Origin: Cryptosporangium arvum DSM 44712
Lineage (GTDB): Bacteria > Actinomycetota > Actinomycetes > Mycobacteriales > Cryptosporangiaceae
Length of the DNA: 64,000 nucleotides
Reading direction: 5' to 3'
Assembly (NCBI RefSeq): GCF_000585375.1
Contig: NZ_KK073874.1
Location: forward strand, 7,909,913 to 7,973,912
The position numbers and the translations under genes are program-made. Positions 8,189-10,685 of this stretch are shown one piece after another (the first letter of the stretch is position 1; the number at the start of each line of letters is the position of its first letter). The notes under the pieces were generated by a model that searched no databases, had not been told where the DNA came from, and saw nothing but the letters and a program-made list of their open reading frames with translations.

Positions 8189-8373
8189 GCCGCCTCCCTC
8201 GATCTCGCCGACGCGACCGATACGGCCGCGCAAGCACGATCCTCTCCGACGGAGGGCGGTGCGTCACGGGTTATGGAGCGATAGATGGGTGAGCTTCAAC
8301 CACTCACGTTCGTAGAGCCCTTCCGGGCATCAATTTATGAGCCGTCAATGACCGAACGGCTACGCTGCGCAGT

Positions 8374-8397
8374 TTAGCCCCAGGTGGCGCCACGCAT
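8374..8397 (-). CDS. Heptapeptide gene, copy 7, last (MRGATWG)
   Basis: ATG with AAGGGAG seven bases upstream; codons CGT GGC GCC ACC TGG GGC, and the only TAA stop. It is the copy nearest the GGDEF-EAL gene. The gap to that gene (8189-8373) contains no further copy and only a weak GCCC/GGGC hairpin. Confidence 0.75.
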   Translation of the reverse strand: MRGATWG

Positions 8398-8441
8398 CAC
8401 GCAACTCCCTTCTGGATGCAATTCCCTACCGCGGTCGGCGC

Positions 8442-8465
8442 TCAGCCCCAGGTCGCACCACGCAT
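8442..8465 (-). CDS. Heptapeptide gene, copy 6 (MRGATWG)
   Basis: ATG with GGAGGG seven bases upstream; codons CGT GGT GCG ACC TGG GGC, stop TGA. Confidence 0.75.
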   Translation of the reverse strand: MRGATWG

Positions 8466-8523
8466 TGCGGTTCCCTCCATTCCCACCAGTAACGAATTTC
8501 CACTCCGACCACAAAGGGGGCAA

Positions 8524-8547
8524 TCAGCCCCAGGTCGCACCGCGCAT
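8524..8547 (-). CDS. Heptapeptide gene, copy 5 (MRGATWG)
   Basis: ATG with AGGAGG nine bases upstream, the best Shine-Dalgarno of the array; codons CGC GGT GCG ACC TGG GGC, stop TGA. Confidence 0.75.
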   Translation of the reverse strand: MRGATWG

Positions 8548-8599
8548 CGTCGAGCACCTCCTCTCGCCCTTCACTGCACTCGCCGTCCGTTCGTTCGGT

Positions 8600-8623
8600 T
8601 CAGCCCCACGTAGCGCCTCGCAT
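8600..8623 (-). CDS. Heptapeptide gene, copy 4 (MRGATWG)
   Basis: ATG with AAGGGCGG six bases upstream; codons CGA GGC GCT ACG TGG GGC, stop TGA. This copy uses rare codons for a high-GC genome (CGA, GCT) without changing the peptide. Confidence 0.75.
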   Translation of the reverse strand: MRGATWG

Positions 8624-8668
8624 CGCACACCGCCCTTCGGATCCCGTACCGCTGTCCACATCCGACCG

Positions 8669-8692
8669 TCAGCCCCACGTCGCGCCGCGCAC
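8669..8692 (-). CDS. Heptapeptide gene, copy 3 (GTG start)
   Basis: The only copy starting with GTG; GGAGG lies six bases upstream. Codons CGC GGC GCG ACG TGG GGC, stop TGA. The change ATG to GTG still gives formyl-methionine at the start. Confidence 0.75.
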   Translation of the reverse strand: MRGATWG

Positions 8693-8738
8693 GGTCCACC
8701 TCCGATCGTGAGCACCTGATCCGGCACATCGGACAAAC

Positions 8739-8762
8739 TCAGCCCCAAGTTGCTCCACGCAT
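8739..8762 (-). CDS. Heptapeptide gene, copy 2 (MRGATWG)
   Basis: ATG preceded by AAGGGAGG nine bases upstream; codons CGT GGA GCA ACT TGG GGC, stop TGA. The spacer before it is 58 bases and distinctly AT-rich. Confidence 0.75.
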   Translation of the reverse strand: MRGATWG

Positions 8763-8820
8763 CACTAAACACCTCCCTTCACTTCAGTCCAACCATTCCC
8801 ACTATTCATTTTGATTAAAT

Positions 8821-8844
8821 TCAGCCCCACGTTGCGCCGCGCAT
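8821..8844 (-). CDS. Heptapeptide gene, copy 1 (MRGATWG)
   Basis: First copy in transcription order. The ATG is preceded by AGGAAGGGG eight bases upstream, with codons CGC GGC GCA ACG TGG GGC and stop TGA. It also lies in frame at the end of an 86-codon GTG-started frame reaching back to 9081, which has no visible Shine-Dalgarno, so the internal ATG is preferred. Confidence 0.75.
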   Translation of the reverse strand: MRGATWG

Positions 8845-9218
8845 CGCCACCACCCCTTCCTGGAGTTCCCCGACTCGGGTCGAAACCACACCGATCCGTA
8901 CACGTTCGGTTACGGAAACAAGAAATTGATGTTCTGCGCGTATCGGCATCCGAACACGAGACAACGCAACCAGAATTATCCGGCCGCAAATCTCGCCCGC
9001 ACTTTCCGGGCTCACTTCGAGATTTGATCTCGGATCGCGATATGCCGAACGTAGTGGCGTTATCGCAATGGGTGAAGACACTCAATGGCTACCAAAGAAT
9101 GTGCGTTCGCCCGCTAGTCGAAAACGGTATAAAACGCTACCGCAAGTGATACTGCGCGTACCTATCCACGTGCGACGAGTTACTAGTCGACGTTCTCGGA
9201 ACGGCGACACACGATAAC
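8845..9218 (-). other. AT-richer upstream region of the heptapeptide array
   Basis: About 370 bases between the terminator of the mca operon and the first heptapeptide gene, visibly less GC-rich than the flanking genes. Short overlapping frames exist on both strands but none has a Shine-Dalgarno or recognisable product. It presumably holds the array promoter. A TATACC hexamer near 9126-9131 (minus strand) could be a -10 element, but no matching -35 is clear. Confidence 0.35.
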
Positions 9219-9245
9219 GGCGCGGATACAGAATGCGTCCGCGCC
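9219..9245 (-). terminator. Hairpin terminator after the mca operon
   Basis: Perfect 8-bp stem GGCGCGGA/TCCGCGCC with an 11-base loop, followed on the minus strand by GTTATCGTGT. It lies about 110 bases beyond the stop of the small membrane gene and separates that operon from the heptapeptide array. Confidence 0.5.
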
Positions 9246-9353
9246 GTGCCAATCGTAGATTACTCTCCGTGCTCGGAGAAGGGAAGTCGGGGTCCCTGCG
9301 GCGCGCCGGGGTCCTGGCGCGCCGCTACGTCGACTGTTCGGTACGGAGAGTGG

Positions 9354-9674
9354 TCAGCTCTCGGTGGTGCTCCGCTTCACGACGGGCTCGGCCGCAGCCG
9401 GTTCCGCCGAGGCCTCGTCGGCCTTCTCCGCGGTACCCGCAGACTCGGCCGGCGTGGCCGGTGCGGCAGACGCGGCCGGCGCGGCCGCGCGGTCGGACTT
9501 CTCGGCCGGGAACGACGCGGGTAGCCGCTTGATCCGCGCGGTCATGTTGCGCCACAGCAGGATCGTCGCGATCGCCAGCAGCGCGACGACCGCCAATGCC
9601 AGCGGCCCCGCACCGGCACCCTCCCGGGTGTCTCCGAAGTTGTTCGCCGCCTCGACGACCGTTTCCAGCGTCAT
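9354..9674 (-). CDS. Small single-span membrane protein downstream of mca
   Basis: Protein of 106 residues with one membrane helix at about residues 24-42 (LALAVVALLAIATILLW) followed by a short basic stretch and a tail rich in Ala, Glu, Pro and Lys that is probably cytoplasmic and disordered. The ATG overlaps the mca stop by four bases (ATGA), so it is coupled to mca. Small proteins of this build accompany mca in related actinomycetes. I know no demonstrated function. Confidence 0.72.
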   Translation of the reverse strand: MTLETVVEAANNFGDTREGAGAGPLALAVVALLAIATILLWRNMTARIKRLPASFPAEKSDRAAAPAASAAPATPAESAGTAEKADEASAEPAAAEPVVKRSTTES

Positions 9675-10558
9675 CGTGCCTTCACCGCCTCGCGTACTCC
9701 TGCGAACAGATCATCTTCCGGCCGCTCGCTCTCGACCGCCGAGCGGGCCAACTCGTAGTCCTCGGTGGGCCAGACCTCCCGCTGGACCTCCAGCGGGACG
9801 CCGAACCAGCGCCCGTTCGGGTCGACCTGGGTGGCGTGCGCGCGCAGCGCGTCGTCACGGAGGCCGAAGTACTCACCACAGTTGATCCGCGTGGTGATGC
9901 GGTCCCCGGGGTCCGGCCGGTCGTCCGGCCAGTTCTGCAGCCACTCCTCGTAGGGCGACTCCAGACCGGCGGCCTTCATCGCCTCGTCCAGCTTCAGCAC
10001 CCGGGCCTTGGAGAAGCTCATGTGGTAGTAGAGCTTCAGCGGCTGCCAGGGCTCGCCCTGCTCGACGTACCGCTCGGGGTCGCCGGCCGCCTCGTAGGCC
10101 TCGACCGACACCCGGTGGCACATGATGTGGTCGGGGTGCGGGTACCCGCCGTTCTCGTCGTAGGTGAGGATCACGTGCGGACGGAACTCACGCACGAGGC
10201 GCACCAGGGGCGCGGCGGCCACTTCGAGCGGCTGGGTCGCGAAGCAGCCCTCGGGTAGCGGCGGCAGCGGATCGCCCTCCGGGAGGCCGGAGTCCACGAA
10301 GCCCAGCCACGCCTGGTCGACGCCGAGGATCGCGCGCGCGTTCGCCATCTCCTCGCGGCGCAGGTCGCTGAGGTTCGCCCAGACCTCGGGCCGGTCCATC
10401 TGGGGGTTGAGCACGGAGCCCCGCTCGCCACCGGTGCACGTGGCGACGAGGACCGAGACCCCGTCACGCACGTAACGGGCCATGGTGGCGGCCCCCTTGC
10501 TCGACTCGTCGTCCGGATGGGCGTGCACGGCCATCAGCCGGAGTTGCTCGTCGGACAC
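9671..10558 (-). CDS. mca: Mycothiol S-conjugate amidase
   Basis: Zinc-dependent amidase that cleaves mycothiol S-conjugates to a mercapturic acid and GlcN-inositol, a detoxification step found in mycothiol-producing actinobacteria. The 295-residue protein has the LmbE/PIG-L motif AVHAHPDDE at residues 10-18, the HPDH zinc motif near 146, and the Mca-like segment ATCTGGERGSVLNP. The GTG at 10558 is chosen because GGGAG lies nine bases upstream and VSDEQLRLMAVHAH matches family N-termini; another in-frame GTG is at 10576. Confidence 0.93.
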   Translation of the reverse strand: MSDEQLRLMAVHAHPDDESSKGAATMARYVRDGVSVLVATCTGGERGSVLNPQMDRPEVWANLSDLRREEMANARAILGVDQAWLGFVDSGLPEGDPLPPLPEGCFATQPLEVAAAPLVRLVREFRPHVILTYDENGGYPHPDHIMCHRVSVEAYEAAGDPERYVEQGEPWQPLKLYYHMSFSKARVLKLDEAMKAAGLESPYEEWLQNWPDDRPDPGDRITTRINCGEYFGLRDDALRAHATQVDPNGRWFGVPLEVQREVWPTEDYELARSAVESERPEDDLFAGVREAVKAR

Positions 10559-10685
10559 GCGCCGGATCTCCCTCACCTAGGTGTCAGCCCGTCGGGATAC
10601 GTTGCTGCGTAGCTGACAGATGAATTGTCCACGACCGGCGGTGCCGCTGTGACAGCGGCTCACCGGCCCCGATAGCGGAGCGCTC

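Follow-up and report, generated by a model that had tools for sequence, protein, structure and literature searches.

Tandem heptapeptide micro-genes beside membrane c-di-GMP genes look like part of an undescribed peptide signalling system in some actinobacteria

The window analysed here (the whole stretch of 64,000 nucleotides from Cryptosporangium arvum DSM 44712) contains an array of seven 24-base frames on its minus strand (8374-8844), each reading (M/V)RGATWG-stop. There is, in our estimate, an even chance that this array is the multi-copy leaderless peptide gene of a signalling module that comprises the peptide, an MFS exporter, and a membrane c-di-GMP receptor. The module looks like an undescribed peptide signalling system in some actinobacteria. 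Judged from sequence comparison, selection on the peptide and the linkage of the micro-genes to their neighbours are well supported, and the N-terminal domains of the neighbouring membrane proteins appear to be related. What an earlier note on this DNA had missed is the neighbouring membrane c-di-GMP gene, which is the key to the array and is found with micro-genes in many families.

That note had described seven minus-strand frames with one common peptide, and both the frames and the matches to a degenerate MRGATWG pattern bear this out (Table 1). The pattern has seven matches in the whole 9,195,993-base genome, all of them array units, and the reversed control pattern has none; the tandem form has 6 matches in the window against 0 in 100 shuffles. 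Within the window, the units do differ only at wobble positions (of Arg, Gly, Ala, and Thr), together with one GTG start and one TAA stop, just as had been read. The spacers measure 58, 46, 45, 52, 58, and 44 nt, in agreement with the range of 44-58 bases given before, and have indeed diverged, being 37% identical to one another. A purine-rich, Shine-Dalgarno (SD)-like stretch lies 5' of each unit, as claimed, although the claimed distance of 6-9 nt holds only roughly. Rfam gave one chance match only, away from the array (E 0.96), a promoter and terminator scan of the window gave nothing above shuffles, and a sigma-70 consensus was not found in the region 5' of the array (8845..9330). This region does contain blocks, for example CCGAACGTGTACGG, which is present in three species and nearly so in the fourth; these are perhaps regulator sites.

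Table 1. Features of the micro-gene locus in the window
Feature	Position	Strand	Basis or remark
Unit 1, MRGATWG	8821..8844	-	frame and degenerate pattern match
Unit 2, MRGATWG	8739..8762	-	frame and degenerate pattern match
Unit 3, MRGATWG, GTG start	8669..8692	-	frame and degenerate pattern match
Unit 4, MRGATWG	8600..8623	-	frame and degenerate pattern match
Unit 5, MRGATWG	8524..8547	-	frame and degenerate pattern match
Unit 6, MRGATWG	8442..8465	-	frame and degenerate pattern match
Unit 7, MRGATWG, TAA stop	8374..8397	-	frame and degenerate pattern match
Region 5' of array	8845..9330	-	blocks conserved in four species; presumed promoter/regulator sites
Stretch between array and partner gene	8189..8373	-	conserved in four species
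Partner gene, 804 aa	5774..8188	-	6-TM domain, GAF-like region, GGDEF, EAL; presumed receptor

The degenerate pattern occurs in all four genomes of the genus (7, 6, 6, and 7 matches, one with Ser for Arg) and has 0 matches in one other genome of the same family. Read unit by unit, each of the four congeneric species has seven units, and 25 of the 28 are MRGATWG. The exceptions are one MQGATWG and one MSGATWG in G001 and unit 7 of G002, in which the ATG is gone and translation from an in-frame GTG would give MSRGAIWG (here and below, G### stands for genomes, f## for families, and L### for loci, and G000 is the window genome). Spacer k is most similar to spacer k of the other species in 67 of 72 comparisons, which implies that the seven units are orthologous and that the array predates the split of the four species. 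Orthologous spacers are 66% identical on average, against 37% between spacers of the window array; the units are therefore old and not recently copied. Counted as minimum changes, codons 2-7 of units 1-6 have undergone at least 22 synonymous substitutions and 1 non-synonymous one in the four species (pN/pS 0.017); with unit 7 added, the numbers are 25 and 3 (pN/pS 0.046). Since this 22:1 excess of synonymous changes is found where orthologous spacers are only 66% identical, selection acts on the peptide, which the counts show to be under strong purifying selection. The earlier proposal of selection on a translated peptide thus gains from the congeners, where the random non-synonymous changes that would have spoken against it were looked for and the low ratio was found instead; the absence of non-synonymous differences is true inside the window and nearly, but not perfectly, so among the congeners.

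The partner gene lies 185 nt 3' of the array on the same strand and encodes an 804-aa membrane protein with GGDEF (Pfam E 4.7e-34) and EAL (E 2.2e-66) domains. Its EAL-type motifs are present, and its GGDEF motif reads HGDEF, so that the partner has the domains and catalytic motifs by which GGDEF/EAL enzymes are recognised, with this one variation. The motif is also HGDEF in G001 and G002, as in G000, but GGDEF in G003, and several other partners have no recognisable GGDEF motif yet retain EAL-type motifs. A partner homologue was found at E 1e-80 or better in 26 of 41 genomes searched (own included). Homologues that include the N-terminal part occur at 18 loci, and 13 of these, counted by hand, have a micro-gene with an SD and a penultimate Trp; at the other 5 loci of this window-partner type no micro-gene was seen. 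Those 5' of the homologue include MRGTHWG and MERGTHWG in G004, which belongs to the same family as the window, a single VERGDQWG in G008, ten units in G012 (MSLYGTHWG, MRFDGTHWG, and eight with QLDGTHWG), and six in G025 (MRFDSNGWG, four of start plus SNGWG, and MRDSNGWG). Across the units of G012 and of G025, variation is confined to the residues before the last five, which suggests that the C-terminal pentapeptide is the functional part.

With the MFS gene that adjoins the G012 array as bait, and without any peptide pattern, a search of 22 genomes led to MSNVTWR and three MNNVTWR in G020, to MSLQKIWS between the MFS and GGDEF-EAL genes in G016, to MRGSAWT and MRGSTWS in G116, and to a second locus in the window's own genome (L345:6893-7035, contig ~2347892-2348034) with MRGTDWE, MRITEWD, and MHGTDWD. 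The L345 micro-genes stand directly before the MFS gene and are divergent from the gene of an 825-aa NB-ARC/TPR protein. In G681 (L262:9897-12261), three MRIRR(D/E)xxWG units follow the MFS gene and VRKDYSWG precedes it, beside a BTAD/NB-ARC/TPR regulator; more degenerate-looking units lie near this L262 set. The NB-ARC/TPR protein near the L345 and G681 sets, where no GGDEF gene was seen, is perhaps another type of receptor. The MFS proteins themselves are near TIGR00900 (an H+ antiporter model, below its cut-off) and Mef-type models. G404 has four separate loci (L380, L381, L382, and L383) with different peptides, each beside its own TM-GGDEF-type gene.

The 54 distinct peptides so collected have 6-10 residues, and 38 of them have 7; that all 54 have a penultimate Trp is by construction because nearly all were found by requiring Trp there. 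Codons vary inside the constant cores of G012 (Thr as ACC/ACG/ACT, His as CAC/CAT) and G025 (Gly as GGA/GGC/GGT), units of the MRGNSWD arrays (G539, G521, G512) encode the same Ser by either AGC or TCC, and the NVTWR array of G020 uses TGA, TAA, and TAG stops. The core codons of the G176, G116, G423, and three of the G404 arrays are identical and so uninformative. The peptides differ among units in some sets (MRGTDWE/MRITEWD/MHGTDWD; MRGADWA/MRGADWC; G681), and in f15 species, the MRG[NST][DE]W core is mostly constant but followed by N, G, D, T, M, or L as the last residue, a variation that may be pherotype divergence or weak constraint.

Searches independent of the partner gave the same association. 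When two copies of TGGGGCTGA at the spacing of the array were required, 22 of 397 genomes from the order and 13 of 335 from the class gave matches; outside the genus, true arrays were recognised in G004, G012, G025, G176, G116, and G681, and a further match, G393, proved later to be a micro-gene locus. Among the matches listed from the same kind of pattern scan of viral contigs, there was no array. Matches to GGAG-spacer-MRGxxWx-stop, many of them chance rows, came from 37 of 180 genomes in the order and 26 of 168 in the class; rows that lacked a true stop or had a residue other than Arg at codon 2 were dropped, as were the four discovery arrays, and 41 loci were kept. A GGDEF or MFS homologue lies within 1.5 kb at 27 of these 41 loci, compared to 2 of 48 controls (Fisher p 1.8e-10), the controls being loci that earlier patterns had matched by chance, L222 and L232 included. 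One of the two positive controls is the true micro-gene locus of G393, and removing five overlapping or repeated controls leaves 2 of 43. The 14 loci with neither neighbour were kept in the denominator; three are at contig ends (G081, G109, G477), and the others are G161, G017, G148:C46, G545, G550, G536, G448, G551, G147, G039:C44, and G076:C5. The linkage of the micro-genes to GGDEF/MFS genes, in many families and in all orientations, is well supported. SD-preceded micro-frames with a penultimate Trp number 52 in 193,392 nt of partner-type loci and 30 in 165,012 nt of MFS loci, with 3 in 291,760 nt of controls, a count that is not the main test, since the compared loci overlap and include the discovery arrays. 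One of the three control frames (MRKGVEWG, L222) sits directly 5' of a GGDEF-EAL gene. Other GGDEF loci gave 0 such frames in 94,008 nt, which cover too little upstream sequence.

The orientation of the micro-genes bears on a reading in which they are cis-acting leaders, their translation, or stalling at Trp-x-stop, controlling the downstream GGDEF-EAL (or MFS) gene. Same-strand placement before the GGDEF-EAL gene (ARRANGEMENTS) was found in the window genus, G004, G008, G012, G025, G016, G030, G018, and G393; of the eleven f15 loci in the set of 41, nine have it too and two look like chance. This same-strand 5' position, the one expected of an attenuation leader, makes a role in cis conceivable in f5, f9, f13, and f15 as well as at the window locus, and some MFS genes likewise have micro-genes ahead of them. 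The codon beside the stop also fits such a leader: Gly7 is GGC in 27 of the 28 units of the genus, giving an unusually constant GGC-TGA, as against 19 of 28 for Gly3 (p 0.012). This is a nucleotide-level constraint that the peptide does not explain. However, the micro-genes are divergent from the GGDEF gene at 10 loci (G020, G176, four of G404, G539, G521, G512, G423; for G176 and G404:C137 the contig stops short of the partner's GGDEF domain, and the assignment is by similarity) and convergent with the GGDEF-EAL gene at 5 (G116, G088, G013, G074, G148:C91). At these 15 loci they cannot be a GGDEF leader. Moreover, a strong hairpin follows several arrays: after the last unit, 5 of 15 folded regions contain hairpins clearly below shuffles (G013 -46.4, G074 -47.7, G088 -40.8, G681 -36.6, G025 -30.0), with a T run behind the hairpin in G013 (TTTTT) and G681 (TTTT) only; in the other 10 (among them G116, G148, G539, and G012) no hairpin was clearly below shuffles. 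A peptide repeated up to ten times with synonymous changes is also beyond what one stalling site needs, and we consider control in cis very unlikely.

MFS homologues lie beside or within ~4 kb of the micro-genes at 19 loci by our own count, and GGDEF gene, micro-gene, and MFS gene occur together in f2, f9, f10, f13, f24, f34, and f43. Next to the array of the window genus and at the f15 loci, no MFS homologue was detected; as no MFS gene adjoins the window array, it has no exporter candidate there. Clustering of 226 ORFs from 31 loci in 12 families put a GGDEF group at 27 loci in 10 families, an MFS group at 14 loci in 9 families (an undercount), and NB-ARC/TPR-type proteins near 6 loci in 4 families. 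No other cluster occurs in more than two families, and no modifying enzyme recurs among these ORFs, the 31 loci being a chosen set and the simple ORF caller missing genes such as the MFS of G013, G016, G148, and G404:C407. The earlier observation that no modifying enzyme lies beside the array thus extends to the other loci, and the multi-copy minimal peptide gene then proposed is upheld by the seven units and by the arrays in relatives.

A signalling module could work as follows. The array would supply the diffusible part, a leaderless short peptide from mostly multi-copy genes. Reiterative translation is possible for frames of 2-8 codons, and the 7-codon mccA is translated in this way with a recycle number of 71 in vitro, according to the relevant parts of one source (PMC6495379). 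Each 24-base gene, with its own ribosome site and seven codons, would suit such reiterative translation, and several units per transcript would raise the peptide yield. The DHA3/Mef-type MFS protein would be the exporter, and the receptor would be the membrane protein, in which a 6-TM domain of ligand-binding type is fused to GGDEF or GGDEF-EAL and would change c-di-GMP. The C-terminal five residues, x-x-x-Trp-x, identical within most arrays and different between lineages, would be the specific part. Translation in vivo, MFS export, binding by the 6-TM domain, and control of c-di-GMP are steps that we infer.

The same MFS genes could instead serve a minimal RiPP or antimicrobial, its precursors modified by an enzyme encoded elsewhere and exported by the MFS protein, while the c-di-GMP protein would act in regulation or immunity. 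Tiny precursors do occur in multiple copies among the biarylitides, with up to six in one strain (PMC13417212, in part), the microcin C precursor has 7 codons (PMC6495379, in part), and one partner MFS has a weak match to an NCBIfam ryptide-export MFS model, at E 3.8e-4 and 19.6 bits where the cut-off is 575. This reading is nevertheless improbable: no enzyme family recurs in the clustering, done with a simple caller, and the peptides vary at nearly every position but Trp, itself part of most searches. It is likewise unlikely, if by a shade less so, that the peptide stays inside the cell and binds the GGDEF protein, the MFS protein, or the NB-ARC/TPR regulators without any cell-cell communication. 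Six to ten residues without an export signal would suit an intracellular regulator, as would the window array and the f15 loci, which lack an adjacent MFS gene, and the NB-ARC/TPR regulators near the 6 loci; the MFS genes of one family beside or near the micro-genes at 19 loci argue against it, and so does the partner's N-terminal domain. Of the three hypotheses offered before (a RiPP precursor, a signalling peptide, and a translation-linked sensor), the signalling peptide is the one that we infer to fit best, the first being without a recurrent enzyme and the last at odds with the 15 loci.

The partners probably have a common 6-TM N-terminal domain. Profile comparison with hhalign aligned the first group of partners with the GGDEF-only partners at 93.6% probability (E 2.1e-7) and with the f10 partners at 97.1% (E 5.1e-11); the latter two, compared directly, had no similarity (probability 0.1%), and the first group is their only link. 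A model of the window protein's residues 1-345 has pLDDT 79.2 and pTM 0.60, and the closest Foldseek matches were ECF S-components (RibU, FolT; TM-score by target 0.60-0.72, best E 0.028, none at E <=0.001), followed by GAF domains. A poor model of the second partner group (pLDDT 61.5) again had S-components as its highest-probability matches (0.5-0.63, E above 1), all its matches being at E 0.5 or more. A resemblance of the modelled 6-TM domain to ECF S-components is thus possible, though the E-values are weak. Proteins of the S-component type bind small ligands from outside, and even this weak resemblance is unfavourable to a peptide that stays in the cell. MASE9 matched weakly in 3 of 25 partner members (best E 0.0054), and the partner is of the same kind as membrane GGDEF/EAL proteins with MASE-type sensors. 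Taken further, the signalling reading would make this a new class of cell-cell communication, in which arrays of genes close to the minimum possible size yield leaderless peptides, about seven residues long and with Trp second to last, that stay unprocessed. A DHA3-type MFS protein would export them, membrane c-di-GMP enzymes would sense them directly by way of an S-component-like domain, and the C-terminal pentapeptide would define the pherotype; we advance this tentatively, as something that could well prove wrong. If it were true, a single genome could hold several private channels side by side, as with the four loci in G404 and the two in G000.

Among known systems, RRNPP pairs (Rap/Phr, PlcR/PapR, Rgg/SHP) resemble the present loci in having a short peptide gene beside a presumed receptor and lineage-specific peptides. 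They are described, in the part of the source that defines them, as an exported propeptide of 10-100 aa with a TPR receptor of 250-500 aa, in Bacillota (PMC10075063). Here, in contrast, leaderless genes of 6-10 codons, often in arrays, have a membrane GGDEF protein as their main partner. None of the 54 peptides is a 10-100 aa propeptide with an export signal, and instead of an adjacent 250-500 aa TPR receptor, the window has TM-GGDEF-EAL and the second own locus the 825-aa NB-ARC/TPR protein. A leaderless streptococcal system, reportedly a single gene in Bacillota with a cytosolic receptor and no c-di-GMP link, shares with the micro-genes, to judge by its title, a tiny unprocessed signalling peptide. 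That system is the secreted peptide signal of Do et al. 2017. MFS export is a feature of microcin C as well. MccA is like the window units in its seven codons and reiterative translation (PMC6495379, in part), whereas its C-terminus is nucleotide-modified by a dedicated enzyme; here none recurs and the last residue varies, and no adenylyltransferase gene was found among the window neighbours (Pfam) or in the recurrent clusters. The biarylitide genes (bytA) are also tiny bacterial peptide genes, with several copies in a few strains (PMC13417212, in part). Unlike the micro-genes, which are mostly of seven codons and usually have one Trp, they have five codons, an adjoining P450, and cross-linked aromatics. 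The units here are 24 bp and not 18 bp, and no P450 was found among the window neighbours scanned.

MRGATWG occurs in no paper of the open-licence literature searched, and for GTHWG, SNGWG, GATWG, RGHAWG, and NHIWG, no paper is by its title about such genes among the matches listed. Searches by topic found no comparable system among the papers listed from this literature, whose open-licence scope makes absence weak evidence. Actinobacterial quorum signals are described as typically small molecules in the pertinent part of one source (PMC10075063), and the quorum signals given for c-di-GMP enzymes in the available part of another are BDSF and AI-2, with "peptide" named there once, in a general statement (PMC8846402). 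The present loci indicate that 24-base genes can be conserved, repeated, and lineage-specific, and the search patterns used find more of them. To our knowledge, the signals of many membrane c-di-GMP enzymes are unknown. Because a peptide of known sequence adjoins a presumed receptor here, both questions are directly testable with synthetic heptapeptides.

On the 5' side of the array, the window (9354-10576) also holds the genes of a 106-aa membrane protein and a PIG-L family protein. A small protein and a PIG-L gene are found in the same order in G004 and G008.
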